Below are positions 1,764 through 37,058 of a stretch of DNA of 64,000 bases, piece by piece (position 1 is the first letter of the stretch; each line of letters opens with the position of its first letter). Below the pieces are notes generated by a model, which was not told where the DNA came from, searched no databases, and was given only the letters and a program-made list of their open reading frames with translations. A program made the position numbers and the translations under genes. The stretch comes from Betaproteobacteria bacterium (lineage in GTDB: Bacteria; Pseudomonadota; Gammaproteobacteria; Burkholderiales; Burkholderiaceae_A), in assembly GCA_016868255.1 (NCBI GenBank), contig VGHN01000003.1:1-64000 (forward strand). Reading direction: 5' to 3'.

Positions 1764-3034
1764 GGGCCCCGGCCCTTCTCTGGAATTCCGTCGTTCGAGC
1801 GCTCGCGAGCAACCGCTGCCAAAAATAGCGCTAAGCAAAGAAAGAAAACCGAACTGATGGATGACCGCCCTAACCAGTTCTGGCTGATCCCGAAGGACGA
1901 AAATGCTATAACCAAGCACACACCATGAAGCGAAGCTGGAGAATCCAACAGACGCGCAAGACCGGTCGCTCTGCCAACTCCTAGAAAAGTCAGCAAGGGG
2001 AGCACAAACATACCCGCCATTAAGGTGATGAACCCAAGAAGACCGGTTGTCCCGAGGAACTCGAAATACAAACTATGGGCTTCGCCAAAATGAGCGTTCA
2101 TAGAGGACTGTCCCAGTCGAATCATCTCAGCAAGGTCATGCGAGTAGTCTCCCAACCCGGAGCCCAACAATGGGTTCGCAATCCACATATCGTAAGCTGC
2201 GCCCCACATCTGCAGGCGATACCCAACCGACGTATTCGGATCTCCTCCGGATAAGAACTGCAGGAAGGTTTGTGTTGCCTCCGACATTCTTGACATAATC
2301 AAAGGGTGAAGGCTCAAGACCCAAGTGAACAATGCGAGCGCCAACAATGCGAGAGCCGTCTTCCCGACAACGCCAAATCGGCGGCGCTGCGAAAACACCG
2401 AGACAAGCAAGACAAAAGACAAGCCAAGGTAGAGGCTAATCCAGCTTCCACGGGTTCCAGAGAGTATTGAGGCATATCCGCTGAGCAATACTGCGGTAAG
2501 GAATGCAGCCAAATAGATTGGCTGACCCCGGTTCGCATAGGCTGCAGTCGCTGCAGCACATGCGAGATAGGCGGAAAAGTCCCCAAACAGAATGGCGTTG
2601 TAGGCACCTTCCGCTCGCCCGAGTGCGCCAACTTGCTCTATCGCGGCTAGAAACACCAGCAAAGAACCAACCAACACGCCCTTCTCAAAAAGTGGAATCA
2701 ATTTATGGTCATGGCGGATGAGATAGAGAAAAACAACGACGCAGCCAAGGGCTCGGGACACACGTTCAAAGCGTGACCAATATTGCTGGGTATCTGCTGT
2801 ATTCATGTAGCCAAGCAACACGATAAGAACAAAAACCAAAAGCGAAAGCATGGTCATCTGGTCGAGAGGGGACAGGCACCGCCAACCCACGTTACCGTCT
2901 CGGCTGAGCGTGTAAACGGAGATCAAGAAAACAAAAATAAAGATCCCACTTGCGGCGCCAGCTAGAACCCCCATGAGAACCGGAAGCAGAAATATCAGTA
3001 TGCGCAAGAGTCGGTTTTCGAGATGTAGTTGCAT
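1760..3034 (-). CDS. O-antigen ligase family membrane protein (WaaL/Wzy_C type)
   Basis: Polytopic membrane protein of about 424 residues with roughly ten hydrophobic segments and a large periplasmic loop in the C-terminal half. The loop holds GSGLGDYSHDL and HFGEAHSLYFEFLG, the histidine-bearing stretch typical of Wzy_C proteins, which transfer O-antigen from undecaprenyl diphosphate to lipid A-core. An upstream TTG (3079) is possible, but the ATG at 3034 starts directly at the hydrophobic N-terminus. It overlaps the MsbA-like gene by 4 bases and so is probably co-expressed with it. The family also includes O-antigen polymerases and protein glycosyl ligases, so the ligase call rests on the MsbA/core context. 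Confidence 0.75.
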   Translation of the reverse strand: MQLHLENRLLRILIFLLPVLMGVLAGAASGIFIFVFLISVYTLSRDGNVGWRCLSPLDQMTMLSLLVFVLIVLLGYMNTADTQQYWSRFERVSRALGCVVVFLYLIRHDHKLIPLFEKGVLVGSLLVFLAAIEQVGALGRAEGAYNAILFGDFSAYLACAAATAAYANRGQPIYLAAFLTAVLLSGYASILSGTRGSWISLYLGLSFVLLVSVFSQRRRFGVVGKTALALLALALFTWVLSLHPLIMSRMSEATQTFLQFLSGGDPNTSVGYRLQMWGAAYDMWIANPLLGSGLGDYSHDLAEMIRLGQSSMNAHFGEAHSLYFEFLGTTGLLGFITLMAGMFVLPLLTFLGVGRATGLARLLDSPASLHGVCLVIAFSSFGISQNWLGRSSISSVFFLCLALFLAAVARERSNDGIPEKGRGP

Positions 3035-3269
3035 AAGAAGACAGGCTGGACTGCTCTCAAGATTTATTGAGAGTAGCAAACGATAGGTTCACAAATGAGT
3101 GAGCGCTCTAAGGCAAGGGCTCACGACTCGAAGAGTTTAAACTACCGGCTCAGAATAGGCTCAAAAGCAACGAGGGAGCGGTCTTATTCATCCGGTCAAA
3201 CGTGTTTCTCGGCAGATCATTAAGTTAGCCGCCAACGGTACCAAGATTGGTTGCTATGTCGTCTATTTT

Positions 3270-3971
3270 TTGAGGCCAGAGGTACGATTTTTGCTTCCGG
3301 GGCGTTGCAGTTCTCTCATCGCTACCAAAAAAGGGGCGTCCGCCATTCCCCTCACCATCTGGCAAACGAACTTCACCAATCGGGTCACACTGCCGGTTTA
3401 CCTAAACTACCTGTTCAATCGGCTGATGGCGCCCCATCATGAGCATCGGTTTATGGTCACCGACGAGCGGGAGACCTTCATTCGGGAGCATTTCCCGCCA
3501 GAGATTCTAAAGACTTATCTGCAACTGCAGATCGGCGCAGCCCAGGCAGACCTCTGGAGACTATTGGTGTTGCAGAAGTATGGTGGGGTGTACATGGACA
3601 TCGACGCGCACCTGGTTTGGCCACTTCATTGGAGCATCCCACCAGAGGCCACCGAACTTTACCTTCGTATCAAGACTGGCGAGATCAGCAATTACTTCAT
3701 TGCCAGTGCGCCGAACAATCCAAGGCTGCAGCGAGTGATTGACAGAGTCGTTCAAAACATACGCGAGCGCTCATCTGAGAACGTCTACAACCTGACGGGC
3801 CCCGGTGTGTTCAACGAGGTCTTGGGTTCGGACAATGTGCCAACCACCTACTATCTGACCACCGTGAACCAGGGCAACTTCACCAACGAATTCTTTCAGT
3901 ACATCGACAAACCCCAGGGGAAATGGACGAAAGAGCAACACAAGGTTTCAGTGCTCAAACCTCCCCAGTAG
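3270..3971 (+). CDS. GT32-family glycosyltransferase (OCH1-like)
   Basis: About 233 residues. The N-terminal IPLTIWQTNFTN matches the opening strand of GT32 enzymes (usually IPKIIHQ-W). The nucleotide-sugar site reads AAQADLWRLLVLQKYGGVYM followed by D-I-D at residues 110-112, the classic DxD metal-binding motif. It likely adds a hexose to LPS or a surface polysaccharide. The start is uncertain: 3270 is TTG and another TTG lies at 3291; neither has a convincing ribosome site, so the N-terminus may be slightly eroded. It runs on the plus strand and its 3' end overlaps the convergent glycosidase-like gene by 17 bases. The roughly 190 bases upstream contain no gene I can see. Confidence 0.75.
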   Translation: MRPEVRFLLPGRCSSLIATKKGASAIPLTIWQTNFTNRVTLPVYLNYLFNRLMAPHHEHRFMVTDERETFIREHFPPEILKTYLQLQIGAAQADLWRLLVLQKYGGVYMDIDAHLVWPLHWSIPPEATELYLRIKTGEISNYFIASAPNNPRLQRVIDRVVQNIRERSSENVYNLTGPGVFNEVLGSDNVPTTYYLTTVNQGNFTNEFFQYIDKPQGKWTKEQHKVSVLKPPQ

Positions 3972-5076
3972 GCTCTGAGCGATCCCTTAAGGTCTCTTGC
4001 ACCATTCGTTGGTATCGACCAAAAGCCTCTCGCCTTCGCAATCGCCCATCTCTGTTGTCCACCAGGCCATAACCGGGCGCAATCAACTGATGCCAGTAGA
4101 CGGTTTCCACCATCTGGGTCGCAAACGCCATCTGGTAATAGGCCACCATGTAATCCTCATACTCCTCCTCTGAGACGCACTCAGTTTCGCTGGTGGGGGC
4201 GTAGGGGGCCGTTCCCTTGATCGGCCAATTCACCTCTGTAACAAGCAACTGTGGGTTCGCCACCTTGGAACTCATGGAGGTCAGCGCAGAGAGCAGTTGA
4301 ATTTTTCGAGTGGCATTGAAGACACCAAGTTGTGGGTTCATCGGATGCCCGCATCGGTCTACGTAGAGCAGAGCAGATACTTGATCGAACTGAATGGTTC
4401 GGGTGTTGAACAGGGCTCTGGCGGTATGGTGATATTCGAAGTCGATGACAGCCGGGCCGCAGAGTTTGATATCTGCCGCGTAAGTGTCTCGCGCAGCCTG
4501 GAAGACCTCAAGGAAGTCCAAGTACTCCGACACGCTGTAGAAACCCCACTTGGCTCGATTGATGGCATTGCCGACCTGAGCCTTAGAGATCAGGCCCTGA
4601 AGTGCCGAGAGAGCCACGCGCGCTTGGCGCTCCAAGTTCGTTGTGTCACTAATAGTTCGGGGATCCTGCAGCAGGTTCACCATGACATTGCAGCCCCTGC
4701 GATGCCAACCTTCAATGAATCGCAGGTAGTGGGACAAGTCCTCGAGCTTCCAGAACGGCAGTCGCACCAAGACCTCGGTCACACCCAACTCGGCCACCAA
4801 ATCGTACTGAATATCGCCACGCTCAAGGCTCACACCCATGCCAAAAAAGTTGGCTGGGGCTTGCCTTGGCCGAGGACTCTGCGGCCTGAGCAGTGATTTC
4901 AGCCCCATGGCAATCATGGCGCTCGGGAGAACCACGCCTGCCGTCGCAAACATCTTGAGGAGATCGGGCCAATGCTGTGCCCGCATTCGTCGCTTGAAGG
5001 CCTTGTCGAGAATGATCTTGGGCTGATCTGAGTGCTCGTCCCACTCAAACGATCGATGAGAACTCAGCAAAGTCAT
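3955..5076 (-). CDS. Glycoside-hydrolase-like TIM-barrel protein in LPS cluster
   Basis: Protein of 373 residues with a hydrophobic segment near residues 40-60 (GVVLPSAMIAMGL), then a barrel-like domain resembling clan GH-A glycosidases (GMGVSLERGD, LVRLPFW, MVNLLQDP). LLVTEVNWP carries a glutamate placed like the clan nucleophile. The segment that usually carries the acid/base glutamate reads QVGNAINRAKWG, with alanine where E would be expected, so activity is doubtful. The ATG at 5076 is chosen because it forms an ATGA overlap with the stop of the upstream heptosyltransferase-like gene; the open frame continues to 5319 but inside that gene. It may trim or bind a glycan during LPS assembly, perhaps membrane-anchored. 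Specific substrate unknown. Confidence 0.55.
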   Translation of the reverse strand: MTLLSSHRSFEWDEHSDQPKIILDKAFKRRMRAQHWPDLLKMFATAGVVLPSAMIAMGLKSLLRPQSPRPRQAPANFFGMGVSLERGDIQYDLVAELGVTEVLVRLPFWKLEDLSHYLRFIEGWHRRGCNVMVNLLQDPRTISDTTNLERQARVALSALQGLISKAQVGNAINRAKWGFYSVSEYLDFLEVFQAARDTYAADIKLCGPAVIDFEYHHTARALFNTRTIQFDQVSALLYVDRCGHPMNPQLGVFNATRKIQLLSALTSMSSKVANPQLLVTEVNWPIKGTAPYAPTSETECVSEEEYEDYMVAYYQMAFATQMVETVYWHQLIAPGYGLVDNRDGRLRRREAFGRYQRMVQETLRDRSEPTGEV

Positions 5077-7691: not shown

Positions 7692-9456
7692 AGTCGCCCC
7701 GAATCTTGCGCCAAAGGCCAAACACATCGGTTCTGGGGAACACCGCGATTCGGCGGATCTGAAAACGGTCTTGATGCATGGCGCGTGGGCCGCTGTCTGT
7801 GGCCACGGCGTAGGCGTACCCCGCCTCCTGAGCCTGGGTTTTCGCGCTCGCATTCAAGTACCCAAAGGGGTAAGCGAAGGACAGCATCGGGTGGCCCAGG
7901 ATGCCCTCCAGAGCGCGTTTGTTCTCGCGAATCTCTTTGGCCTGGGATTTTGCATCCAGTTCATCCAGCTTCGCATGGGAGAGGGTATGGCCGCCGATCT
8001 CCACATGGCCAGAGGCATCCAAGGCCCGAATCTCGTCGGCCGAGAGCAGCGGCACCCGAACATCTGGGTCGGTGGGGTGCTCAACATCCCATCGGTTGTG
8101 GGTCTCACCACTCACCACGTAGACCGTAGCCTTCATGTTGTACTTCTTGAGCAACGGCAGCATGCGAGTGAGGTTGTCTTGATAGCCGTCGTCTGCGGTG
8201 ATCATCAAATACTTTCGGCCAGGGCTAAAGCGATGCATAAAGCCCTTGTCTTGAAAGTCTGTAAAGGTCAAAGTCTCAAAGCCCATGCGTTGAATCAGGC
8301 GCAGGTGCTTCTCGAACATCTGCACTGTAGTCCAGGTACCGTGTACCCCCTGCTCAGAGGGGTGCTCCACCAGGCGGTGATACATCAGGATGGGTATTTC
8401 TCTGCGCAGCGTCTCCACCACCGCGTCTTGATAAACTTCCTCAACTCTTGTGGCCACGGATTCCAGGCCGTAGGCCTTAAGAACTCGGCCGCGCAACTCA
8501 GTGGATACTGGTGGCAAGGCGTCGGGCCCGCTCAAGAGTGATGAGAGTTCCTGCTTGATCTGCTGGAAATCCATAGCGAGCTCATGACCACCCACATCAC
8601 CAAAGTTGCTGGCCATTGCGGCCTCAAGTTTCTCGATGCTCACCAGGCCAATGTGGCGCGTCTCCCCCACCGCAAAGACGGGCGTACCGGTGAAGAGCGC
8701 CTCCACCGCCACGCGCCCGGCACCAATGACCAGATCCGCCTGGGCAATCTCCTCGGCCACCGCAGATTGATCTTCTACAAAAGCAACCCGATCTGAGAAG
8801 TTCTTAAACGCAGGGGGTAACGCACTACCTGTTACAACGCGCACATCAACCGCGCTGAGATCCAGCACATCTGACAACAGCCGGTGGCACAACTCGCCTT
8901 TGGGGCCTGTGAGCCTCCCGACGATCGCAATCCGCGGCCTTCCGGCCTGGCGCTTCAGCCTCACCTCGTTCACTGGGAAGGCAGCGGGGTCAATGCCGTT
9001 TCGAATCACCACGACCTGGTCTGCCGGCACACCTAGAACGTCTACCAACTGATCTCGCACAGCCTCGCACACGGCAATGGCCCTGGCCCCAAACGCCCAA
9101 AACCATCTTCGAGAACCATGGGTGGGCTGCCGACCATGCACGGTCGTGACCATGGGTGTCTTGGTGAGCCAACAGGCCACGCGGCAACTCCAGCCAGATG
9201 CCCTGGAATGGGCATGAACCAGTTGAATTTTGTACTTGCGAATCAGCCACACGAGACGGGCCACGTGCCAAAGGCGCCTTGGAATGCTTCGCTTATTGAA
9301 TGCCAGCGGAATGAAGGCGCCCTTCACTTGGCGAGTGAGGGTGTCTGACACGTACCAGACCTGATGGCCCCGGGCCGTCAGTTCGTCTCCCAGGGTAGTG
9401 GCGTAGACCTCTGCTCCAGTGACTTCCAACTGAGAGAGGGCCATGAGTATATTCAT
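7675..9456 (-). CDS. Fusion of GT4 glycosyltransferase and CE4 polysaccharide deacetylase
   Basis: Single 593-residue protein with two domains. Residues 1-350 are a GT-B glycosyltransferase: VTGAEVYATTLGDELTARGH at the start, VHAHSRASG, NGIDPAAFP and IVGRLTGPKGE, with a donor-site region near 235-275. Residues 355-593 are a CE4 NodB-type deacetylase: ILMYHRLVEH, catalytic TADDGYQ (420-426, usual TFDDG), zinc motif H490-TLS-H494, and SFAYPFGYLN. This suggests transfer of an N-acetyl sugar and its deacetylation by one polypeptide. No stop or frameshift interrupts the join. It is the first gene of the minus-strand LPS chain, just downstream of a tRNA-Leu gene. Domain calls are strong; the reaction order is inferred. 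Confidence 0.85.
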   Translation of the reverse strand: MNILMALSQLEVTGAEVYATTLGDELTARGHQVWYVSDTLTRQVKGAFIPLAFNKRSIPRRLWHVARLVWLIRKYKIQLVHAHSRASGWSCRVACWLTKTPMVTTVHGRQPTHGSRRWFWAFGARAIAVCEAVRDQLVDVLGVPADQVVVIRNGIDPAAFPVNEVRLKRQAGRPRIAIVGRLTGPKGELCHRLLSDVLDLSAVDVRVVTGSALPPAFKNFSDRVAFVEDQSAVAEEIAQADLVIGAGRVAVEALFTGTPVFAVGETRHIGLVSIEKLEAAMASNFGDVGGHELAMDFQQIKQELSSLLSGPDALPPVSTELRGRVLKAYGLESVATRVEEVYQDAVVETLRREIPILMYHRLVEHPSEQGVHGTWTTVQMFEKHLRLIQRMGFETLTFTDFQDKGFMHRFSPGRKYLMITADDGYQDNLTRMLPLLKKYNMKATVYVVSGETHNRWDVEHPTDPDVRVPLLSADEIRALDASGHVEIGGHTLSHAKLDELDAKSQAKEIRENKRALEGILGHPMLSFAYPFGYLNASAKTQAQEAGYAYAVATDSGPRAMHQDRFQIRRIAVFPRTDVFGLWRKIRGDYVFRR

Positions 9457-9602: not shown

Positions 9603-9866
9603 ATGCGCATCACAAATCTGCGCCTGGCGCGCGAAGATCGGCTGGTTTTCGAGGCTCTGATCTTCAGAGCAAAGCTCACCGGCTCGGCCTCGTAGGCCCC
9701 AATGGTGCTGGGAAAAGCAGCCTTTTGATGGCTCTGCAAGGGCTCATCGTGCCCACCGTTGGGAAGGTGGACTTGGAGGGGCAGCCCGGCTTCTTGTTCC
9801 AGAACCCAGACCATCAACTGCTGTTCCCCACTGTGATGGAGGAACTCTGCTTCGGAGCAAATAATG
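9603..9866 (+). pseudogene. Remnant of a CbiO/EcfA-type ABC ATPase, frameshifted and truncated
   Basis: An ATG at 9603 opens MRITNLRLAREDRLVFEAL, the start of a cobalt/ECF-type ATPase, but this frame stops within 30 codons. From 9680 the next frame continues RLGLVGPNGAGKSS (Walker A), MALQGLIVPT, then the Q-loop stretch FLFQNPDHQLLFPTVMEEL. Homology ends abruptly near 9866 before the signature and Walker B motifs, where SecF-like sequence begins. So this is the first third of an ATPase with one frameshift, joined to an unrelated gene. It cannot encode a working ATPase. Confidence 0.82.
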
Positions 9867-10180
9867 AGAGTGTGGTGGTCGCCGACCGCATTCGCGAGAA
9901 CTTCCGCCGCATGCGCAAGGTGAGCGTGCAGGAGTTGATCGACAACGCCATCACCCGCACCATGAGCCGCACAATCATCACCCATGAAACCACCGAGACC
10001 ATGGTGCTCGCCATGCTAAACTTCGTGCCGCACGGCTTTGCCTTGGCACTTACCATTGGCATCGTGTTTGGCATTTACTCGTCCATCTTCGTGATGGCGC
10101 CCATCACCTTATGGCTGGGCATCAAGCGGGAGGATTTGATCAAGCCGGTCAAGAGTAAGGACGAAGTGATTGTTCCTTAG
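9867..10180 (+). pseudogene. C-terminal fragment of the SecF protein-export subunit
   Basis: In frame with the end of the ATPase fragment, the sequence switches to the SecF C-terminus: ESVVVADRIRENFRRMRK, then ELIDNAITRTMSRTIITH, then FALALTIGIVFGIYSSIFVM and WLGIKREDLIKP, ending at a natural stop. These are the conserved last transmembrane segments and cytoplasmic loop of SecF. The first roughly 200 residues are absent, so it should not function; an intact secF presumably exists elsewhere. The 151-codon open frame 9725-10180 spans the junction and would encode a CbiO-SecF chimera if translated. Confidence 0.85.
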
Positions 10181-10243: not shown

Positions 10244-12247
10244 GTGATGTTCACGGGGACGCAAAGAAAACTGGCGACGGCTTTCGAGTTATTCCAAAGA
10301 GGTCGGCTTTCCGAAGCTGACCTACTGGCAAAGCAGGTGCTCGTGCTCGATCCCAGAACTGCCGAGGCCTTGCATCTTAGGGGTGTTGTAGCTGGTCTAC
10401 AACAAAGGCACTCAGACGCTGAGGGTTTTTTGCTCGCTGCAGCGTCGCTTGACAAGAGGAATCACTTCATCCACTTCAATCTTGCGAAGGCACTCAGCGA
10501 GCAGGGAAAAAACCGGGACTCTCTTCCTTGGCACAGGAAGGCTATCGAGCTCGATCCGGGGCGTGAAGAGGCCTGGTTAGGTTATGGGCTCTCGCTTAAG
10601 GAACTTGGCGAACTCACAGCTGCCATTGAAGCTTTCGATCGAGCTCTGGCCATCAATAGCCGTCTAACGAAGGCCTATACAAACAAGGGGAATTGCCTCC
10701 AAGAGATGGGTGCTTTAGATGAGGCTCTGACCCTTCACAATCGTGCCGTTGAGTTGAGCCCCACGCTGGCTGAAGCTTGGAGCAATCGTGGCGTTGCGCT
10801 AAATGACCTCCGGCGTCATGCGGAGGCTCTGGCTAGTTACGAGCGAGCCATCGAACTCAAGCCCGACGATGCCAAAGCTTGGAGCAATCGTGGCGTTGCG
10901 CTAAATGACCTCCGGCGTCATGCGGAGGCTCTGGCTAGTTACGAGCGAGCCATCGAACTCCAGCCCGACTATGCCAAGGCTTGGAGCAATCGGGGTGTTG
11001 CGCTAAGTGACCTTCGGCGTCATGATGAGGCCCTGGCCAGTTGCGAGCAAGCCATCGGGCTCAAGCCCGGCTATGCCGAGGCGTGGAGCAATCGGGGTGT
11101 TGCGCTCAACGACCTCCGACGCCATGAGGAGGCTCTAGCTAGTTATGAGCGAGCCATCGAACTCAAGTCCAACTATGCCGAAGCGTGGAGCAATCGGGGT
11201 GTTGCGCTCAACGACCTCCGACGCCATGAGGAGGCTCTAGCTAGTTATGAGCGAGCCATCGAACTCAAGCCCGACTATGCCGAAGCTATTTATAGCAAAG
11301 GACTTTTACAACTCTCCCACAAAGAATTTTTGGGTGGTTTTGAGAACTATCTTTGGCGCTGGAAAACTCGGAGTTTTTCAAGTCCAGCGCTCATGACAGA
11401 TCTTCCTCTGTGCGACCGAACCAAAGGCGGAGAAAGTTTGCTACTGTGGGCTGAACAAGGAATCGGTGATGAGATTTTTTACGCTGGCTTGCTCGCCCAA
11501 GCATTAGAGAGGTTTTCGAGTATCAGACTTGTAGCCGACAGAAGACTCCACCTAACTTTGAGTCGATCTTTTCCGACGATCACTCTTTTTGAGAGGGGCC
11601 AAACTTTAAAGCCGGAGTCCCTCAAGGGAATGGATTCTCAGGCCCCCATCGGGAACTTGGCCTATGTCTTGGGGCTAGATTCTGAAGCGATCTTATCAAC
11701 CCGCGGGCCCTTCCTAGTGGCAGATAGAGAGAGGCGCGACGAGTTGAGGCTATTAGCCCCATTTTCCAACGGGAAGACTATTTGTGGACTCGCATGGAAA
11801 AGTCACAACAAGGATTTCGGCGAGGAGAAGAGCATCGGCTTGGAGCAACTCGAGCCAATACTCACGAATACACGACTCGAGTTCGTCAACTTGCAGTACG
11901 GGGATGTTGATGCTGATATTCAGAAAGTCAGAGATCGTTTTGATGTAAAGATTCACCAGATAAAGGGGGTCGATGCTCACAACGATATCGACGGTCTGCT
12001 GGCGTTAATCGACGCCTGCGACATTGTAGTCACCACTAGCAACGTGACCGCTCATCTGGCAGGATCAATCGGGAGAAGAGGTTGCGTTTTTGTTCCGCTC
12101 GCAAAGGGGAGAATCTGGTATTGGCATCCAGGGGATGTTGATAGCTTTTGGTACCCAGGACTAAAAGTCTTCCACCAACGTGACATGCGCGACTGGACCG
12201 ACACTATTCGCCAAGCTACAACATGGATTGATCGGGAGGTATTGTGA
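10244..12247 (+). CDS. TPR-repeat protein with C-terminal glycosyltransferase-like domain
   Basis: About 667 residues. Roughly the first 360 are tetratricopeptide repeats, nine or ten units of 34 residues with the W/Y-x-N-G ... A-x-x-x-Y-E-x-A-I pattern (for example AWSNRGVALNDLRRHAEALA). The rest resembles the GT-B-like domain often found behind TPR arrays, with LLLWAEQGIGDEIFYAGLL and a DIVVTTSNVTAHLAGS stretch like the donor site of GT9/GT41 proteins. It may glycosylate proteins or polysaccharide. The start is GTG 10244 or ATG 10247. The downstream GT8-like gene overlaps its stop (GTGA at 12244-12247), suggesting coupling. Substrate unknown. Confidence 0.75.
   Translation: MMFTGTQRKLATAFELFQRGRLSEADLLAKQVLVLDPRTAEALHLRGVVAGLQQRHSDAEGFLLAAASLDKRNHFIHFNLAKALSEQGKNRDSLPWHRKAIELDPGREEAWLGYGLSLKELGELTAAIEAFDRALAINSRLTKAYTNKGNCLQEMGALDEALTLHNRAVELSPTLAEAWSNRGVALNDLRRHAEALASYERAIELKPDDAKAWSNRGVALNDLRRHAEALASYERAIELQPDYAKAWSNRGVALSDLRRHDEALASCEQAIGLKPGYAEAWSNRGVALNDLRRHEEALASYERAIELKSNYAEAWSNRGVALNDLRRHEEALASYERAIELKPDYAEAIYSKGLLQLSHKEFLGGFENYLWRWKTRSFSSPALMTDLPLCDRTKGGESLLLWAEQGIGDEIFYAGLLAQALERFSSIRLVADRRLHLTLSRSFPTITLFERGQTLKPESLKGMDSQAPIGNLAYVLGLDSEAILSTRGPFLVADRERRDELRLLAPFSNGKTICGLAWKSHNKDFGEEKSIGLEQLEPILTNTRLEFVNLQYGDVDADIQKVRDRFDVKIHQIKGVDAHNDIDGLLALIDACDIVVTTSNVTAHLAGSIGRRGCVFVPLAKGRIWYWHPGDVDSFWYPGLKVFHQRDMRDWTDTIRQATTWIDREVL
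10775..11284 (+). repeat. Five tandem 102-bp units inside the TPR gene
   Basis: Units start at 10775, 10877, 10979, 11081 and 11183, each encoding one 34-residue TPR. Units 1 and 2 differ at about three bases near their ends, and units 4 and 5 at two bases, while unit 3 is more diverged. This nesting points to recent duplication of single units by recombination or slippage. It is coding DNA, not a CRISPR array. Confidence 0.95.
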
Positions 12248-12957: not shown

Positions 12958-13761
12958 TCAATTAGACACTCCGATGGGGGACATTTCTGTTGGTTTGGGG
13001 TGTTGCCAGTTCTGAACGGGTGGCAACTTCCCGTTGGCCGTATGGGGCCGATCCTCGTTGTAATCTTTGATCCACTCCTCGGTAATCTCTCGGACCTGTT
13101 CAAGGTCTGAGAAGAGGTAGGCGTCCAAGACTTCGTGTCGGTAGGTTCGATTAAATCGCTCGATAAAGGCGTTCTGGCTGGGCTTGCCTGGTTGGATATA
13201 CCGAAGCTCGATTCCTCTGTCCTTACACCACTCCGTCAGCGCCGTTGAACGCAGCTCCGGACCGTTATCCAAGCGCAGCGCCTCTGGCAATCCGTAGACC
13301 TCTCCGAGTTGATCCAGAACTCTGACCACCCTAGCAGCTGGAAGGCTCGTGTCGATCTCGATACCCAAGACCTCTCGATTGGCTTCCTCGAGCACGTTGA
13401 GGGTTCTGAAGGGTTTGCCGTAGTCGAGCGTGTCATGCATGAAGTCGAGCGCCCAGATGACATTCTTGGCCTCTGGCGCCACCAGCGGGATGCGAGGCCC
13501 TTTGGGCAGTCTGCGCTTGGTGCGGCGGGGCAGGTTCAAGCCCATATCCTTGTAAACACGCCAGACTCTCTTGTGGTTCCAGCCATACCCATGGTTTCTC
13601 ATCCAAAAAAAACACAACTCAAAGCCCCAGCGGCCATGCTTGGCCACAATCTGATTGAGTACATCGACCACCGGTGCATCTCGCTTGGCCTTATCAGCCG
13701 GTCGGCGGTAAAAACTCGCTCTGGCCAGACCCACACACCGACAAGCCCTTTGCACCGCCAA
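12958..13761 (-). CDS. IS3-family transposase OrfB (DDE integrase domain)
   Basis: About 268 residues as an independent frame; the frame is open further upstream (KREAVEYLVGEEGL before residue 1), consistent with synthesis as an OrfAB fusion by minus-one frameshifting. It has an HTH_21-like region (HGRWGFELCFFWMRNHGYGW) and then the DDE core: D in WALDFMHDTL, D in LRLDNGPEL and E in NAFIERFNRTYRHEVLD. DFMHD is characteristic of the IS407 group. All three catalytic acids are present and there are no internal stops, so the enzyme could be active. Confidence 0.92.
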   Translation of the reverse strand: MAVQRACRCVGLARASFYRRPADKAKRDAPVVDVLNQIVAKHGRWGFELCFFWMRNHGYGWNHKRVWRVYKDMGLNLPRRTKRRLPKGPRIPLVAPEAKNVIWALDFMHDTLDYGKPFRTLNVLEEANREVLGIEIDTSLPAARVVRVLDQLGEVYGLPEALRLDNGPELRSTALTEWCKDRGIELRYIQPGKPSQNAFIERFNRTYRHEVLDAYLFSDLEQVREITEEWIKDYNEDRPHTANGKLPPVQNWQHPKPTEMSPIGVSN

Positions 13762-13811
13762 TCCTTCTTCGCCAACCAGATACTCGACCGCTTCACGCTT
13801 TCTGGCTGGCG

Positions 13812-14078
13812 TCAGAGCTTTTTTGCAATCAGCCCCTTCATCGCTTTGTTCTCAAGGGTCAGATCGGCCACGATCTGCTTGAACTCCGAGAGCTGGGCCT
13901 CCAACTCCTTGATCCGCTTTAACTCCGAGGCATCAAGACCACCGTACTTGGACTTCCACTTGTAGTAGGTTGTAGTGCTGATCCCATGCCTGCGGATCAC
14001 ATCACCCACCGGCAACCCGGCATCCGCCTCCTTCAAGATCCCAACAATCTCGCTCTCGGTAAACCGTGACTTCTTCAT
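13812..14078 (-). CDS. IS3-family OrfA (helix-turn-helix DNA-binding protein)
   Basis: 88 residues starting at ATG 14078, six bases after an AGGAGG ribosome site. It has the HTH motif KKSRFTESEIVGILKEADAG through RRHGISTTTYYKWKSKYGG and a leucine-zipper-like coiled coil (ELEAQLSEFKQIVADL) typical of OrfA. Near the 3' end the minus strand reads AAAAAAG (A6 at 13819-13824), the expected slippery site to fuse OrfA to OrfB. OrfA alone binds the IS ends. Confidence 0.92.
   Translation of the reverse strand: MKKSRFTESEIVGILKEADAGLPVGDVIRRHGISTTTYYKWKSKYGGLDASELKRIKELEAQLSEFKQIVADLTLENKAMKGLIAKKL
13819..13824 (-). other. Probable minus-one frameshift site of the IS element
   Basis: An A6-G run on the minus strand lies just before the orfA stop codon, where the orfB frame is already open. 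This matches the A-AAA-AAG slippery heptamer that produces OrfAB transposase in IS3-family elements. Function is inferred from family knowledge. Confidence 0.7.
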
Positions 14079-14433
14079 GCAAAACCTCCTGTCGTCCAAT
14101 ACTGCCAAACAACAGAAATGTCCGCATCAACACTGTCTCAATTTAGGGGGAGACTACAACACCAGTCCGACTTCTCTTGCTTTTGCCCTTGGTATCTTGC
14201 TATCGACCACCGCAGTCTTTGTAAACCCTGCATCTCATTGCTACTCGATACAGAATCAGGACTCGAAGAATCTCTGTCTCGCATTGGTGAAGAAGAACAA
14301 GTCGAACTGTTACTCAATCGGTTCATCAGACTTGAAGAACATGTGTCTGGCACAAGTTGGTGAACAACGAAGCAACTGCTACAGCATTCAGTCTTCGGAT
14401 ATGAAGAATCTCTGTTTAGCAATGGTGAGGTGA
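14077..14433 (+). pseudogene. Secreted cysteine-repeat protein, 5' end replaced by the IS
   Basis: Outside the IS, from 14159, the frame reads TSPTSLAFALGILLSTTAVF then VNPASHC, a signal peptide lacking its start, followed by three copies of a 23-residue motif of form C-Y-S-I-x3-D-x-K-N-x-C-L-A-x-V. Each copy has two cysteines twelve residues apart, suggesting disulfide- or metal-linked hairpins after export. The only ATG in frame (14077) is inside the IS on its non-coding strand, which would add about 27 foreign residues. No convincing native start remains. It precedes another small secreted protein by 5 bases. Function unknown; likely inactivated or chimeric. Confidence 0.65.
14233..14430 (+). 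repeat. Three 69-bp repeats encoding the CYSI...D.KN.CLA motif
   Basis: Units begin at 14233, 14302 and 14371; the last is partial. Each encodes SxCYSI-x3-D-x-KN-x-CLA-x-V. DNA identity between units is moderate, so the array is older than the TPR duplication upstream. The conserved cysteines, tyrosine and aspartate suggest structural constraint. Confidence 0.85.
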
Positions 14434-14438
14434 TACTA

Positions 14439-14945
14439 ATGATCCAAAGATTTACTACCTTGATTGCGCTGTGCGCTCTAGGCGTTTCGACTGCCCACGC
14501 TGGTTTGTTCGGTTACGACAGTCGGGAAGAATGTGTAAACAAGGAACTTCAAAAGTATAAGCAAACAAATCAGGCAGCAGAGAATGCCGTTTGGCAATAC
14601 TGTATTGATAAATTTCCGGGAAAAACTGGACCGTACCGCTACGAGAAACTTCGCAGGGGAAAGAATGCAACCCTGACATGCATCGAGGCAAGTAGCAAAG
14701 AGAAACTTACAATCTACCAGCGGGAAGGTGTCCTCACGCTCTCAATTCTTAATAAAACTCCTTGGGAGGTAATTGAGAACAATCGAATGAACACGATGCG
14801 ATATTGGAATGAGTATGACGGGAAAAAAGGCAAGGTTCGAAGCGAACTCTACATACAACCTTATCTCGGGTATGTGCACTTAACAATCGTTGAGACAAGC
14901 ACAAACAAGTCTCACTTGTATATTTTTGACTGTCGTGAAGATTAG
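14439..14945 (+). CDS. Small secreted protein of unknown function
   Basis: About 168 residues from ATG 14439 (a GTG at 14430 in the same frame is less likely). The N-terminus MIQRFTTLIALCALGVSTAH ending AHA|GLFGYD is a clear Sec signal peptide. The mature part has a lysine-rich helix (ECVNKELQKYKQTNQAAENA) with two cysteines, then a beta-rich half (CIEASSKEKLTIYQREGVLT, YLGYVHLTIVETSTN) ending IFDCRED. I do not recognise a family. It follows the cysteine-repeat gene by 5 bases and may have been co-transcribed with it before the IS arrived. Its A+T content is higher than the metabolic genes of the window. Confidence 0.6.
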   Translation: MIQRFTTLIALCALGVSTAHAGLFGYDSREECVNKELQKYKQTNQAAENAVWQYCIDKFPGKTGPYRYEKLRRGKNATLTCIEASSKEKLTIYQREGVLTLSILNKTPWEVIENNRMNTMRYWNEYDGKKGKVRSELYIQPYLGYVHLTIVETSTNKSHLYIFDCRED

Positions 14946-14970
14946 GTACTAGAGAACATTCTGACAACTC

Positions 14971-15045
14971 ATGATCCACCAGAAAATAGTTTCCGTAGTT
15001 TTGCTTGTTATTGTCACTGGGTATTGCGCATCTGCCGCAACGTAA
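14971..15045 (+). pseudogene. Orphan signal-peptide ORF, likely remnant of a secreted protein
   Basis: ATG 14971 opens 24 codons reading MIHQKIVSVVLLVIVTGYCA then SAAT and a TAA stop: positively charged start, hydrophobic core and an A-x-A-like end, that is a signal peptide with nothing behind it. No ribosome site is obvious. It lies just after a small secreted protein and most likely marks a third secreted gene lost by a stop or deletion. It could be chance. Confidence 0.35.
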
Positions 15046-15128
15046 GGAGTTACCGGATTACTCATTCTAAGAGTTTACGACTACTAGAATTAGAATTGGG
15101 GTCTCTGCCTGAGCACAATCGACTGTAT

Positions 15129-15205
15129 GGGGTGCGCTAGGTACCATCAAGCGAATCAGGGGGGGTACCCCCCGGGTGGGGGTAGGCCTGGCTGGGATTT
15201 TGATG
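15129..15205. repeat. Intergenic repeat, copy 1
   Basis: Begins GGGGTGCGCTAGGTACCATC, continues through a perfect 14-bp palindrome GGGGGGTACCCCCC (15160-15173) and ends GCTGGGATTTTGATG. The same beginning and end flank a shorter palindrome at 16937-17009. It sits just 3' of the minus-strand gene ending at 15232. It could act as a terminator-like hairpin or a mobile or recombination repeat; there is no T-run directly after the stem. Confidence 0.8.
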
Positions 15206-15231
15206 GGGGGTGGGTACGGATCCTCTCTGAG

Positions 15232-15894
15232 TTACCGGTCAATGATTATAAGCAAACGTTTCTTGGGGGCTGCCTCTGCGGCTTGACCTGTGTTGTCGCT
15301 TTCGGGTTCGGACTCTTTCACTGTATCGGGGGAGTCGCTGCTTAAAAACTTTTCGCCCTGTTCTGCAGTCTGGGAGTCAGGTCCTTTATCAATTCGAGAC
15401 TCATTATTGCTCTCAGAAGGACGATCCTCCAAGTTAGTGTTCGACGATGCATTTGATCTCGCGGGTTTTCTTGGGGGTTTTTCCAACGAGGCCAACACTG
15501 GCTTGACTTGCAAAGTCACCCATTCAGCACCACTGTTCTCAGTGGCCAGTTTCTTTAACAATTCTGCGACGATGCTCCTATCAGAGGCGATGCCTGTCTG
15601 AAGCAACTGAGCCGATAGCAGGAGTTTGGCCCCAGTAGAACCTCTCTGAGACAGATTTTCAAGAACTGGACGTGAGATAGTGCAACGGAGAGAAAAGCCA
15701 CCTCCACATGAGCCGACAGCCCACGTGATCAACTTTACGTCTAGGACTGTGAATCTGTGGCCGACCGCCGACTGGTAGTAATGTTGGAACGCATGATGCA
15801 GTTCTTCCGACTGACTTTGGGGATTCGCCCAAGCCGCTGTGGAAAGCAAGAGCGAACATATAGCGAGGTGACCACAACGCATCAATGAGCGCAT
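15232..15894 (-). CDS. Secreted protein with charged low-complexity C-terminus, unknown function
   Basis: 220 residues. MRSLMRCGHLAICSLLLSTA ending AWA|NPQ is a signal peptide. Residues 25-130 look globular (HHAFQHYYQSAVGHRFTVLD, three cysteines around SCGGGFSLRC). The last 80 are rich in S, E, D, P and N and probably disordered, ending in a basic hydrophobic tail (KKRLLIIIDR). It is the last gene of a minus-strand run with two lipoprotein genes (22-base gap upstream). No family recognised. A role at the cell surface or in envelope assembly is inferred only from signals and neighbours. Confidence 0.6.
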   Translation of the reverse strand: MRSLMRCGHLAICSLLLSTAAWANPQSQSEELHHAFQHYYQSAVGHRFTVLDVKLITWAVGSCGGGFSLRCTISRPVLENLSQRGSTGAKLLLSAQLLQTGIASDRSIVAELLKKLATENSGAEWVTLQVKPVLASLEKPPRKPARSNASSNTNLEDRPSESNNESRIDKGPDSQTAEQGEKFLSSDSPDTVKESEPESDNTGQAAEAAPKKRLLIIIDR

Positions 15895-15915
15895 TCAGTC
15901 GAGACCCGATTGAGG

Positions 15916-16344
15916 CTAGAGAATTCCGTTCTTAGCCAGAAAGACGCTCTTCGATAAGTTCGTGAAAAAGTCTTGGTAAAGCACTGCTTGGGAACTTATG
16001 TCATCCCCGTCGTTCGAGAAATTTGCTCGAAACTGAACGAAATCCTTGTCGATCCTCTGATAGGTGACCGTAACTTTTTCACCTAACTGCCCCCCGGTTC
16101 TCCAACCAGTAACCAAATTCAGGTCACGAGATGAAAAATCCACCTGAAACCCCAAATCTTGTAGCGTAGCGACAATTGCTTTGGCTACCACCCCGTCTTG
16201 ATCTACAAACAAAACGCGAGACTTTGGGACCCGGTCTTGAAGAACACTGACAGGAAACTGGCTACCGAAACTCTCGAGAGATGACGCACAGCCAGAGAGG
16301 AGCGCCCATGAGGCCGATAACGCCATGAGGGTCTTGATCGACAT
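15916..16344 (-). CDS. Predicted lipoprotein of unknown function
   Basis: 142 residues. MSIKTLMALSASWALLSGCA has a lipobox (LSGC), so it should be lipidated. The mature part (VPKSRVLFVDQDGVVAKAIV, LQDLGFQVDFSSRDLNLVTG, GEKVTVTYQRIDKDFVQFRA) alternates strands and helices, like small periplasmic alpha/beta domains found beside CsgG-type proteins. It lies 2 bases after the stop of the upstream lipoprotein gene, so the two are almost certainly co-transcribed. Not assigned to a named family. Confidence 0.65.
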   Translation of the reverse strand: MSIKTLMALSASWALLSGCASSLESFGSQFPVSVLQDRVPKSRVLFVDQDGVVAKAIVATLQDLGFQVDFSSRDLNLVTGWRTGGQLGEKVTVTYQRIDKDFVQFRANFSNDGDDISSQAVLYQDFFTNLSKSVFLAKNGIL

Positions 16345-16346
16345 CT

Positions 16347-16817
16347 TTAGAAGGACGAAGCGTGGTAGGTGAAGTCTTCAACCGTTCCCTTGGAACTCAT
16401 TTTGATGATCAGCGTAAGCGTTTTTTGAGACAGACGTGTCGCCCCCGAGTTTAGGCCGCCTCCACCCTGTGCACCCCAGAGTTGCCTGGGGGAAGATCGA
16501 ATGCCGAGCAACATCAATGACACCTCGCCGCCGGAGTTTGAAAAAGCAAAGTCGGTTGAGAGCTTGTCGTATACCCAAACTTCCTTTGATTTCTTGTCTC
16601 GGGTGACGATGTTGGGGGAGCCCAGCAAGGTAATTACGTCCGCTCCTGACATACCGACAACGATTTCTTTTTGGATTTGTCCCACCGTGACCTTTGAGAT
16701 GGTCTCCTCACCCATTTGTTGGGCATGAAAATTGTTGGCACAACCGGTCAATGCAGCCCCGGCCATTACGACCAGCAGACAGATAAACGGGCCCTTGCGT
16801 GTTTCAGATCGTTTCAT
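16347..16817 (-). CDS. BamE/SmpA-like lipoprotein
   Basis: 156 residues. Signal peptide with lipobox (ALTGC at about 22-26), then TVGQIQKEIVVGMSGADVITLLGSPNIVTRDK..EVWVYDK, which fits the BamE/SmpA-OmlA fold signature (a G-M-x-x-x-x-V helix, then L-G-x-P, then a W-x-Y strand). A glycine-rich loop (GAQGGGGLNSGATR) follows, then a final strand LTLIIKMSSKGTVEDFTYH. BamE-type domains help outer-membrane assembly, but this fold is widely reused. It is first in the three-gene minus-strand run. Confidence 0.68.
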   Translation of the reverse strand: MKRSETRKGPFICLLVVMAGAALTGCANNFHAQQMGEETISKVTVGQIQKEIVVGMSGADVITLLGSPNIVTRDKKSKEVWVYDKLSTDFAFSNSGGEVSLMLLGIRSSPRQLWGAQGGGGLNSGATRLSQKTLTLIIKMSSKGTVEDFTYHASSF

Positions 16818-16936
16818 ATGATGACTCTATTGAAGTTCGATTGGAGGTGAAGATAGCATGAGCCTTTAAACATTTTTGTACTTTTCGCGAGAGGATTTAA
16901 GGCCTTCACCCGCTGCTTGAGAAAATACAGGTGCAA

Positions 16937-17009
16937 GGGGTGCGCTAGGTACCATCAAGCCATTAGGGGGATACCCCCGGGTGAGGTCTGGCTGGCTGGG
17001 ATTTTGATG
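16937..17009. repeat. Intergenic repeat, copy 2
   Basis: Matches copy 1 at both ends (GGGGTGCGCTAGGTACCATC at the start, GCTGGGATTTTGATG at the end) with GGGGG-ATA-CCCCC in the middle. It lies between the BamE-like gene and the 3' end of the CsgG-like gene, again immediately 3' of a minus-strand gene. About 240 bases here carry no gene. Confidence 0.8.
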
Positions 17010-17060
17010 CCCTACACCGCCAAGATTTTGGTCAACGCTTGGTCAACCGAGCCGGGGTCG

Positions 17061-18083
17061 TTATTTACGCATTAGCTTTTGGTCGACCCAGCCCTCACCG
17101 TTTGCACCTTGAACTTTTAAGAAACCGTTCTTGTCCGGCGCCACTACTACAACCTCTTCACCCTTCTTCAAAGAGAAGAGAACCCTACCTCCATCGTTAG
17201 CAGAGGCCAAAACTTTCACCCCGGCAATCTTCCCTTGCAGCGTATCTCCCACGTTGAATGCATTTGCTCTTACGGAACTTGCAGCGTTCGCGGTTGATGC
17301 GGGCCCCGCTGTTGAGGCAATCAAGCTTGGCTGGTTTCGAATTGATTTAACAATGTTGTTGTAGTTGTCGAGCAGCGCAGCAGCGACAACCTTGCCCTCG
17401 GCCGTGTTCGTATACGCGCCTGCGCCTACGCCGCCAAGAAATCCTCCAGCGGCCCAGTCCGCTTTCTCTACGCTACCTTGCGCAGCAGCAACCTGAAGCC
17501 CTGAGCGTGCATCTGCCAGGAGGAGAGTGGTTTGAGCTTGCTTAAATTTAATGCCTGAAGCGACAGCTCCAACCACAGATCCAAACGCTCCAAACAACCC
17601 CCCGATAGCCCCAATTGCTGCACCACCGGAGTTGTTTTCGCTAAAAGCAATCTCGGGTGTGAGCAAAAAGTCGGCGGTTACCATCTGCCCGCCTCCCACA
17701 TTCGATCCGGACTGAAGCTGTCCGCCTTTGGCGAGTTCGCGCTCTTGCATGAGATTTTGCATGGCGAGCCCTCGCTCTACGACCTGGAAGCAGTTTGATT
17801 GCTGGATTATGAGTCTCAACAGTGCGTTCGGGGGGGGGAGGTTAAATCTAGCGAGTGTCGCAGTGATGTGGTCCTGAGGTTGCACGACAGCAAGGGTACC
17901 GAACGGCTTGTCACATTTCTCGAGCGAGGGCGCTGCATCGGTCGCTCCGCCACCACTTGCGGCACCTGTAATTGGCGCATCAGCTCCTCCAGGCTTATAG
18001 CCAAAAACCCCAGGTTTATCCTGCGCTTGAGCAGAGGAAAAATAGCCGATGGCCATCACAGTGATGAATGAATTCTTTAACAT
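17061..18083 (-). CDS. CsgG-family secretion/assembly protein with C-terminal SH3-like domain
   Basis: About 340 residues from ATG 18083, which has AAAGGA seven bases upstream; the upstream ATG at 18107 lacks a ribosome site. A signal peptide (MLKNSFITVMAIGYFSSAQA) is followed by a Gly/Ala-rich linker, then a CsgG-like domain: IQQSNCFQVVERGLAMQNLM, ERELAKGGQLQ, ADFLLTPEIAFSE, and a glycine-rich segment before QAQTTLLLADARSGLQVAAA. There is no lipobox cysteine, unlike true CsgG. The C-terminus (LKKGEEVVVVAPDKNGFLKV then GEGWVDQKLMRK) looks like a bacterial SH3 domain. With the lipoproteins next door it may form or guide an outer-membrane secretion complex. A run of nine C bases lies in the coding sequence at 17830-17838. 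Confidence 0.72.
   Translation of the reverse strand: MLKNSFITVMAIGYFSSAQAQDKPGVFGYKPGGADAPITGAASGGGATDAAPSLEKCDKPFGTLAVVQPQDHITATLARFNLPPPNALLRLIIQQSNCFQVVERGLAMQNLMQERELAKGGQLQSGSNVGGGQMVTADFLLTPEIAFSENNSGGAAIGAIGGLFGAFGSVVGAVASGIKFKQAQTTLLLADARSGLQVAAAQGSVEKADWAAGGFLGGVGAGAYTNTAEGKVVAAALLDNYNNIVKSIRNQPSLIASTAGPASTANAASSVRANAFNVGDTLQGKIAGVKVLASANDGGRVLFSLKKGEEVVVVAPDKNGFLKVQGANGEGWVDQKLMRK
17830..17838 (-). repeat. Nine-base homopolymer (C9 on coding strand) in the CsgG-like gene
   Basis: The coding strand reads nine consecutive C residues, encoding the prolines of NLPPPNALL near residue 85. Homopolymers of this length can gain or lose bases during replication and would shift the frame. 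No functional evidence beyond the tract. Confidence 0.6.
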
Positions 18084-18276
18084 TGAGCGATCCTTTGAGT
18101 TAGTCATCGAGCTTATCTAAGCCCTCAAAAAAAGAAAACCGAATGACTCCGTATTGACGCAGCCTGCCCTTTGGCAGGAAAAGACAAGACAAAACTGAGC
18201 AATGGTCCATGACAATAGCACAACGTATTAAAGGCGTTCTCTTCGCCTATTGCGACCTAAGTACTGCGGATTGCTC

Positions 18277-18315
18277 GGGGTGCACTTAGTACGATCAACC
18301 GAATTAGGGGTAGGA
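18277..18315. repeat. Intergenic repeat, degenerate copy 3
   Basis: GGGGTGCACTTAGTACGATC then AACCGAATTAGGGGTAGGA aligns with the first 40 bases of copies 1 and 2 with several changes; the right half is not recognisable. It lies in the 335-base stretch between the CsgG-like gene and tRNA-Ala, which otherwise holds only a terminator-like hairpin. Confidence 0.5.
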
Positions 18316-18327
18316 ACCTCCAGTTTC

Positions 18328-18359
18328 TCTCCCCAAGAGGTATAAATTGGGAGTTTTTT
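18328..18359 (+). terminator. Terminator-like hairpin
   Basis: CTCCCCAA and TTGGGAG form a stem with one bulge around an A/T-rich loop, followed by six T residues on the plus strand. No plus-strand gene ends just upstream, so it may be a relic, may serve a missed transcript, or may insulate tRNA-Ala from upstream reading. Confidence 0.4.
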
Positions 18360-18418
18360 AAGATTCGGTGGTCGGTGTCGGTTTTGTAAGTTATTGATTT
18401 AATTGGGTTAAGTGGGGC

Positions 18419-18494
<76 letters not shown>

Positions 18495-27684: not shown

Positions 27685-27712
27685 AAAAGAAACCCCTTTC
27701 TGAAAAAAGGGG
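27683..27712 (-). terminator. Riboswitch expression platform hairpin before thiD
   Basis: On the minus strand CCCCTTT and AAAGGGG form a 7-bp stem (27706-27712 with 27693-27699), followed by a T-rich run ending at the TTG start of thiD. The right arm AAAGGGG is also the only plausible ribosome site. The hairpin could therefore end transcription, hide the ribosome site, or both, when the upstream TPP aptamer binds ligand. Confidence 0.7.
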
Positions 27713-27721
27713 CTGATTGAA

Positions 27722-27796
27722 GCTTCCCTACGCTGGTGTGAGCCAGATCAGGTTCAATGGGACTCTCTCAGCCCAACAAATTTGGGCACCCCCGCT
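27722..27796 (-). promoter_or_regulatory. TPP riboswitch (THI element)
   Basis: Read on the minus strand it has the conserved blocks in order: GGGGGTGCCC, GGGCTGAGAGAG, TTGAACCTGATCTGG, and CACCAGCGTAGGGAAGC. These are the thi-box sequences that bind thiamine diphosphate. It lies about 40 bases upstream of thiD and should shut down thiDCOSGE when TPP is plentiful. Confidence 0.96.
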
Positions 27797-27890
27797 TTTT
27801 TTGGAGTTTAGTCCGACCTAGGATTTGGGGCAAGTTCTCCCCCGCTGCAGAAAGTGCTATTTTCTCGCCTTACTCATTCAGGAGGTCATC

Positions 27891-35789: not shown

Positions 35790-37058
35790 TCACAAGTATT
35801 TCAGGCATGCAATGGCCACCGCGGTGGGCAGCAGCGCTCCGAGCAGAAGGCCCATCGGCTGAATCATCTGCCCCTCGAATCGGGCCTTGAGCAGTGTCGC
35901 GCCGGCGGGGTTGGGGGCATTGGCAATCACTGTGAGACCACCACCGGCCACTGCACCGGCCACCAGCGCGTACTTGAATTCGTCGCTCAGGCCCTGTACG
36001 AGCGATCCCAGGTAAGTGAGCGCGGCGTTGTCAGTAAAGGCGGTGAGTCCTGCAGCCCCGAAGAAGACCGCCGAGGGCGACATCTGTGTGAGCAGGGGCT
36101 GAAGCCACCACGCCTGCATGCCGCCGATGATGACCAAGCCCGCCAGGAAGAAACCGACGAGGAGTCCTTCTCGAAGAATGAGTCGGTCTTGGTGCTCGGG
36201 GTAAGCAGCAGCGATTGCCAGAAAAATAAGCAGAATGCCCATGAAAATTGCCGGATGATGGGCGAAGAAAACGATGCTTGCGATGAGCAGTAAATGCAGG
36301 GCGATGAACGAACCCGGAACAGCGGGGATGCTTGGGGCATCGTCGGCCGATGCAAGACTGGCTTGTGATGCGGCCGCCAATTCCTTTCGGAAGATGTAGC
36401 TGACTGCTGCGCCATTGATGGCTACGGCCAGCGCCGACTTCCAACCAAAGTTCGTGAGCATGAAGGCCGTGTCCCAATTCCAGGTGGCGGCCACCATGAG
36501 CACGGGCGGGGCTGCGAAGTGGGTGAGGGTGCCTCCAATCGAGACGTTCACAAAGAGCACCCCAATGGTTGCATATAGAAGCTTGCCACTCATTGAGCTC
36601 TTTAGGATCTTCAGCAGCATGAAGGCGGCAAGAGTCATGGCTGCAGGCTCGGTAATGAAGGAGCCCAGCAGTGGAATGACAGTCATGATGACCAGGTAGG
36701 TGGCCAAAGAGCTATGGAAGGGGAGACGCTGCGCGATGAACGCCACGACGGCTTGGGCGGCATACAGGACTGGGCGGCTGCCAGCCACCACCATGATGGC
36801 AAAGACGAAGAGGGGCTCGGTGTAATTGCGCCCATCGATGTATTCCATGGCGGGCTTGAGACCCTCCATGCCAATGAGAGTCGCAAACAAGATGAAGGCC
36901 CAAATACCAAAAACACACTCGACTTCTGCGAAAAAGTGCAGCATTCCGTGGTGTCTCGGAAAATGGTGTGCAAGACGCTCGACGTACTTGGTGGAGAAGG
37001 TGTGGAGGATTGCCAGGGCAAAGATGATGGATGCGACAACTTGTGTTTCAGCGGACAT
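35790..37058 (-). CDS. Putative Na+/H+ antiporter (PF07399-type), copy B
   Basis: 422 residues, collinear with copy A: AEVECVFGIWAFILFATLIG, RNYTEPLFVFAIMVVAGSRP, GSFITEPAAMTLAAFMLLKI, NVSIGGTLTHFAAPPVLMVA, TDNAALTYLGSLVQGLSDEF, GGGLTVIANAPNPAGATLLK. The divergence in helices and loops indicates an old duplication. The stop codon is one base past the end of tRNA-Leu on the other strand. The two could form isoforms with different pH or ion preference. Confidence 0.82.
   Translation of the reverse strand: MSAETQVVASIIFALAILHTFSTKYVERLAHHFPRHHGMLHFFAEVECVFGIWAFILFATLIGMEGLKPAMEYIDGRNYTEPLFVFAIMVVAGSRPVLYAAQAVVAFIAQRLPFHSSLATYLVIMTVIPLLGSFITEPAAMTLAAFMLLKILKSSMSGKLLYATIGVLFVNVSIGGTLTHFAAPPVLMVAATWNWDTAFMLTNFGWKSALAVAINGAAVSYIFRKELAAASQASLASADDAPSIPAVPGSFIALHLLLIASIVFFAHHPAIFMGILLIFLAIAAAYPEHQDRLILREGLLVGFFLAGLVIIGGMQAWWLQPLLTQMSPSAVFFGAAGLTAFTDNAALTYLGSLVQGLSDEFKYALVAGAVAGGGLTVIANAPNPAGATLLKARFEGQMIQPMGLLLGALLPTAVAIACLKYL

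Follow-up and report, generated by a model that had tools for sequence, protein, structure and literature searches.

Additive flexible genomic islands, in which cassettes of varying gene content are added at tRNA genes, have been described in Alteromonas (PMC4119200), in Candidatus Actinomarinales (PMC7771536) and, as fGI-2, in Candidatus Methylopumilus (PMC10872708). Here, we describe an intergenic repeat of about 80 bp, which we call the core, in a 64-kb stretch of DNA from Betaproteobacteria bacterium (assembly GCA_016868255.1, contig VGHN01000003.1, positions 1 to 64,000 of the forward strand); this whole stretch is referred to below as the window. In the window the core separates blocks of accessory genes, while in relatives it stands between tRNA genes and cargo, and it most likely indicates the points at which packages of foreign genes were stacked. 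The explanation that we prefer, at a probability of roughly 0.58, is that the core is the border of acquired cassettes that lack an integrase of their own and are moved by an integrase acting in trans.

The loci studied here resemble the additive islands in their varying cassette genes at tRNA genes, their direct repeats of tRNA 3′ ends, and their occurrence in small aquatic genomes. Unlike the islands as outlined in those papers, they have a conserved core on the cargo side of the border, and the cores of the window have no tRNA ends. Tycheposons (PMC10872708) likewise bring cargo to the tRNA genes of aquatic bacteria, whereas neither the window blocks nor the insert that we found in the related strain LSUCC0115 contains a match to the tyrosine recombinase family PF00589, and the window has no unit of comparable size (4 to 200 kb). 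The ends of the LSUCC0115 insert, a regenerated tRNA gene and a displaced 14-bp fragment, are those expected of tRNA-integrating islands (Islander; PMC4383910); in contrast to such islands, this insert has no integrase, and a sister genus has rows of small blocks. As in the arrays of attC sites in integrons (described in PMC4119200), the blocks run mostly in one direction and are separated by a site whose ends are conserved while its palindromic middle varies, but the ends of the core, judged by eye, do not fit the attC R box, and the relatives use tRNA ends. No integron integrase was identified in the genome to which the window belongs, which is 84% complete and has two PF00589 matches. Miniature inverted-repeat transposable elements (MITEs) and repetitive extragenic palindromic (REP) repeats are short and intergenic, with inverted ends, target duplication, and many copies. 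The core is also short and intergenic and has imperfect inverted ends, but it has very few copies and a fixed place beside tRNA genes and cargo. Thus, tRNA-targeted additive cassettes are a known kind of element, and what is new here is that they have a conserved core, which can occur where tRNA ends are missing.

The core repeat in the window

The host is a coastal bacterium whose own draft genome (G000) comprises 1.56 Mb in 49 contigs and is 84% complete. We compared it with 10 congeners (own-genus set, 11 genomes), with 8 genomes of the sister genus, and, across the family, with 25 other genomes (family set, 26 genomes). One congener, LSUCC0115 (G002, 99% complete), was isolated from a coastal site and belongs to the MWH-UniPo clade of the Burkholderiales (PMC6952679). 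The core was modeled from five copies by sequence only (model R1), and the model was applied to the 26 family genomes. In the window, the gene sense of the copies is the minus strand, and the repeat and its adjoining tandem lie as follows.

15125-15212 (repeat 15129-15205), minus strand: copy 1 of the core, 81.3 bits in a scan of 12 kb, 26 bp past the stop of a 220-aa gene
16932-17015 (repeat 16937-17009), minus strand: copy 2 of the core, 78.5 bits, between csgG and a 156-aa lipoprotein gene
18273-18318, minus strand: copy 3, only the 3′ half of the core in gene sense (model positions 47 to 91 of 92), upstream of csgG
17028-17047, plus strand: 11-bp tandem repeat TTGGTCAACGC/TTGGTCAAC, arm-site-like, adjoining copy 2; four such tandems in 64 kb

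The original prediction had placed two copies at 15129-15205 and 16937-17009 with a degenerate third; the starts and ends of the first two are exact, and the third proved to be half of the element (21.8 bits, E value of 1.6e-6 in a full-sensitivity scan of 12 kb). In a search of the draft genome, copy 2 matched copy 1 at 84% over a 77-base query (E value of 1.5e-15). The 22-base start GGGGTGCGCTAGGTACCATCAA is identical at 15129 and 16937, with none expected from 100 dinucleotide shuffles, and the 16-base end GGCTGGGATTTTGATG is identical at 15190-15205 and 16994-17009. Read on the minus strand, the unit approximates CATCAAAATCCCAGCCAGACCGACCCCACCCGGGGGGTnCCCCCCTAATTCGCTTGATGGTACCTAGCGCACCCC, with imperfect inverted ends (CCATCAA/TTGATGG). 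Its ends are kept and the C-G-C tracts of its middle vary, in line with the predicted identical flanks around a variable core, and similarity stops outside the ~80 bp. Each copy was also said to lie at the edge of a minus-strand transcription unit, which agrees with the distance of copy 1 from the 220-aa gene, with the 51 bp between the csgG stop and copy 2, and with the position of copy 3 upstream of csgG. The 11-bp tandem beside copy 2 is a putative arm site. Another tandem repeat, at 35942 near tRNA-Leu(TAA), was set aside because it falls within a predicted gene (35790-37058).

These copies could also reflect a local segmental duplication, since the two full ones share a strand and are separated by 1.8 kb. 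The flanks beyond the ~80 bp are dissimilar, however, and copies occur on another contig and in other genomes. This explanation, which was to have counted against the repeat as an element, is therefore refuted, and we consider its likelihood to be negligible.

We also asked whether the core could be a cis-acting RNA element, such as a terminator, a 3′-end stabilizer, or a leader of the next gene. Read in the sense direction, each of the five full copies comes 26 to ~160 bp after a gene or tRNA, and alternative hairpins could arise from the C-G-C tracts. In contrast, no covarying pair was found among the five copies, copies 1 and 2 do not fold better than shuffled sequences (z of 0.06 and 0.45 on the plus strand and of -1.20 and 0.71 on the minus strand), and there is no Rfam match at the repeat copies. 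The stable, conserved hairpin of the original prediction thus finds no support, while its statement that conservation runs past the hairpin is correct and itself argues against an RNA element. A terminator scan gave 9 sites, compared to 4.0 +/- 2.0 in shuffles; those nearby are plus-strand sites at 17038-17056, near copy 2, and at 18307-18320, on half copy 3, and no gene-strand intrinsic terminator (stem-loop plus T run) is present at copy 1 or 2. We therefore regard an RNA element as very unlikely.

Core copies at tRNA genes in relatives

The genome-wide search proposed with the original prediction yielded one further full copy in the own draft genome, on contig C22 beside tRNA-Ser(GCT), for three full copies and one half in total. 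Clear copies were present in 2 of the 10 congeners, one each in G002 and G007, and none was clear in the other 8, with the consensus search and R1 in agreement. Most full copies hold one orientation relative to their neighbors. Random placement is not what these few full copies show, though their number is small. In a collection of genome contigs, a strict core pattern was found in two records, LSUCC0115 and SFB_3D_50_34. In G002, a 27-bp core-like match lies 3′ of tRNA-Pro(GGG), from which a 12-bp tandem separates it. This match is suggestive, but it was not listed by R1 and is excluded from the copy count. Seven weak R1 matches in six loci (two in G001 and one each in G008, G007, G005, own contig C12, and G009) lie inside predicted open reading frames (ORFs) and were dropped as chance, a judgment that covers these seven opened matches and not the remaining weak matches of that scan. 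A 29-bp match between divergent genes in G008 is probably also due to chance.

In the congener G003, lysC and tRNA-Ser(GCT) are followed 17 bp on by a lipoprotein gene, whereas in G002 the corresponding gene lies 9.8 kb from lysC-tRNA-Ser(GCT) and is preceded by a second tRNA 3′ end. The G002 insert is bounded by the 14-bp tRNA-Ser 3′ end CTCCGTCTCCGCCA (positions 2959 and 12780 of locus L050), begins with an arm region and the core, and has a GC content of 0.489, compared to 0.575 and 0.596 in its flanks; no second or inverted core above noise was found inside it. On C22 of the own genome, tRNA-Ser(GCT) is followed by an arm similar to that of G002, the core, and then different cargo (a gamma-glutamylcyclotransferase-like gene), with GC content falling from 0.595 to 0.488 past the core and the contig ending ~740 bp after it. 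About 90 bp 3′ of a second own tRNA gene, tRNA-Ser(CGA) (locus L213, contig C11), resembles the 3′ flank of the C22 tRNA and has the arm without a core or nearby foreign cargo. The core is therefore a separate module, placed between the arm and the cargo.

In the 8 sister-genus genomes, all 6 R1 matches fall on a ~220-bp unit that was found separately by DNA similarity. A 230-bp query placed this unit at 14 positions (at an E-value threshold of 0.01), of which 12 were read, leaving out a 32-bp partial copy and a match to a tRNA end alone. The usual order in the sense direction is a tRNA 3′ end, a terminator-like palindrome, two 12-bp repeats of the TTTTGCCCACAC type, the core, and the first cargo gene. 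Ten of the 12 copies follow a tRNA gene (four copies: Ser TGA, Ser GGA twice, and Asp GTC) or a tRNA-Ser 3′ fragment (six copies), and two have neither; a predicted gene in the same direction comes after the unit in all 11 copies that could be assessed. G020 and G012 each have a series of several units that are separated by cargo. Two kinds of cassette arm repeat recur directly upstream of sister-genus integrase genes, one in G022 and one in G014, the latter beside tRNA-Ser(CGA).

Two further observations concern the genes at tRNA-linked loci. In the tRNA-Ser(GGA) cassette array of G020, a two-gene cargo (locus L055, positions 2129-4950, contig C9) includes an AAA ATPase with DUF3696 that resembles defense-system ATPases. 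In the congener G001 (locus L076, contig C19), a ~45-bp 3′-end fragment of tRNA-Ala(CGC) occurs twice, at 2076-2130 and 7830-7884, and the two occurrences share an AT-rich flank. The 5.75 kb between them contains small genes, among them HipA-like ones (named by eye). These repeats appear to represent a second family of tRNA-linked cassettes in this genus.

To look for the core elsewhere, we searched 21 loci of other own tRNA genes (of 36 tRNA matches) and found none. Integrase genes, defined as PF00589 matches, occupy 34 places in the own genus, own genome included, and 22 in the sister genus; no core was found at the 21 of these that were searched (14 and 7, respectively), and the window arm repeats had no counterpart among the 14 fetched own-genus loci. 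An origin of the core in phages or plasmids was rejected, as its consensus had no blastn match in the phage or plasmid collections, and so was a viral origin, as four exact patterns (two of the own-genus core and one each of the sister-genus arms and core) had no match in viral contigs. Our literature search found no description of the ~80-bp core, a result that applies to that search only.

Origin of the window array

On the minus strand, the window array reads half core, csgG, core, three genes (156, 142, and 220 aa), and core. Its genes and the nearest tRNA gene are as follows.

17061-18107, minus strand: csgG-like gene, 348 aa (Pfam CsgG, E value of 2.7e-8), cargo between copies 3 and 2
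16347-16817, minus strand: 156-aa lipoprotein-like gene, start at 16817, first of the block between copies 2 and 1
15916-16344, minus strand: 142-aa lipoprotein-like gene, second of the block, 32 to 36% identical to the third operon gene in G011 and G015
15232-15894, minus strand: 220-aa gene, third of the block, without a Pfam match
18419-18494, plus strand: tRNA-Ala(CGC), with the array on its 5′ side, as opposed to the 3′ side usual for integration

No csgG was found in the 25 other family genomes. Relatives of the 156-aa gene are present in 2 of these 25, where they head a three-gene operon without csgG, and on an Azospirillum plasmid and an Acinetobacter plasmid, where two small genes follow and no csgG is annotated in the stretch shown. 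Copy 2 thus separates two independent modules, and the window blocks are accessory cargo.

In the explanation that we prefer, cassettes without their own integrase would, in relatives, insert at tRNA gene 3′ ends, and a tyrosine integrase, presumably supplied elsewhere, would act on them in trans. Head-to-tail piling would then give the order tRNA 3′ end, arm sites, core, cargo gene or genes, and next tRNA-end fragment. The window series, half copy 3-csgG-copy 2-lipoprotein operon-copy 1, would be two cargo blocks stacked on the minus strand, with their tRNA ends lost or with the blocks moved by rearrangement or core-to-core recombination. Sequence comparison establishes the homology of the core, its place and direction at tRNA genes in relatives, the tRNA-end repeats around one insert, the lack of that insert in a congener, and the independence of the cargo modules. 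We infer that the window array has the same origin as the cassettes of relatives, that the integrase acts in trans, and that the core itself has a role, which may be that of an accessory recombination site, a transfer or packaging signal, an expression leader, or a hitch-hiking repeat.

Several findings weigh against this explanation. The window array contains no tRNA 3′ end, as the tails of 32 distinct own tRNAs (14, 20, and 28 nt) match it no better than they match elsewhere in the window, and no T-loop motif is present in 14900-18400. tRNA-Ala(CGC) turns its 5′ side to the array, and copy 1 meets a convergent gene (14430-14945, plus strand). In relatives, the cargo of the G002 insert lies on both strands, and the junction in G003 is imprecise, with alignment resuming 105 bp past the G003 tRNA and ~200 bp past the repeated end in G002. 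The other edge of the C22 core is also a breakpoint, because the tRNA-Ser(CGA) flank shares the arm and not the core, a pattern expected of a repeat that moves by itself. The sister-genus R1 matches are weak singly (E values of 8e-4 to 0.15) and cover mainly the 5′ two-thirds of the core, and the arm repeat at the G022 integrase is reversed relative to the cassettes. Finally, no recombinase was identified for the cassettes; the missing integrase in the own genome proves little because that genome is 84% complete.

The original prediction had offered two origins for the repeat, cassette boundaries and a non-autonomous mobile repeat. The first largely holds in relatives, where the core opens blocks at tRNA genes, tRNA-end repeats are present, and a congener is without the block; it is unproven for the window array, which has no tRNA fragments and no synteny. 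Likewise, the proposed gain or loss of blocks is seen in G003, which is without the G002 insert, though not base-precisely, whereas the window context is not syntenic. The second origin, a MITE- or REP-like repeat of ~80 bp with CCATCAA/TTGATGG ends that inserts in intergenic gaps of acquired DNA and is unrelated to cassette movement, would account for the sharp boundary of the unit on both sides, its absence from the otherwise similar own tRNA-Ser(CGA) flank, and the position of copy 1 between convergent genes. We nevertheless consider it unlikely, given the few copies (three full and one half in the own genome and none or one per congener), the recurrent association with tRNA 3′ ends and the single direction relative to cargo in two genera, and the lack of any transposase-linked copy among those seen. 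A further possibility, which we judge to be quite unlikely, is that the core is a new kind of cassette-joining site. Small integrase-less cassettes of this Burkholderiales family would first be captured at tRNA genes and then undergo core-to-core recombination, by a trans-acting recombinase or the host, so that integron-like arrays such as that of the window would form at a distance from tRNA genes.

Surroundings of the array and implications

The window locus is rearranged compared to G002 and G003, in which glcB and tRNA-Ala lie apart, and no syntenic counterpart was found in the congeners compared. tRNA-Ala(CGC) was considered as a conserved insertion site of the array and rejected, as its 5′ flank matched in none of four congeners. 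GC content in the window is lowest near 14 to 15.5 kb, and an IS3-type transposase pair (12958-14108) adjoins this lowest-GC stretch. An ORF at 9725-10180 has a C-terminal part that matches SecD/SecF and a start that resembles, by eye, a piece of an ABC transporter ATPase; it is possibly a fused gene remnant at a rearrangement. The window also encodes a TPR protein of 667 aa whose consecutive repeats are almost the same (10244-12247) and, on the minus strand, a TPP riboswitch (27707-27803).

These findings link a previously unexplained intergenic repeat to the movement of cassettes among the small genomes of aquatic betaproteobacteria. The core provides a searchable mark for integrase-less cassettes that no longer have tRNA ends, which searches for tRNA-end repeats would miss, and the shared arm repeats suggest which integrases might act on such cassettes in trans.

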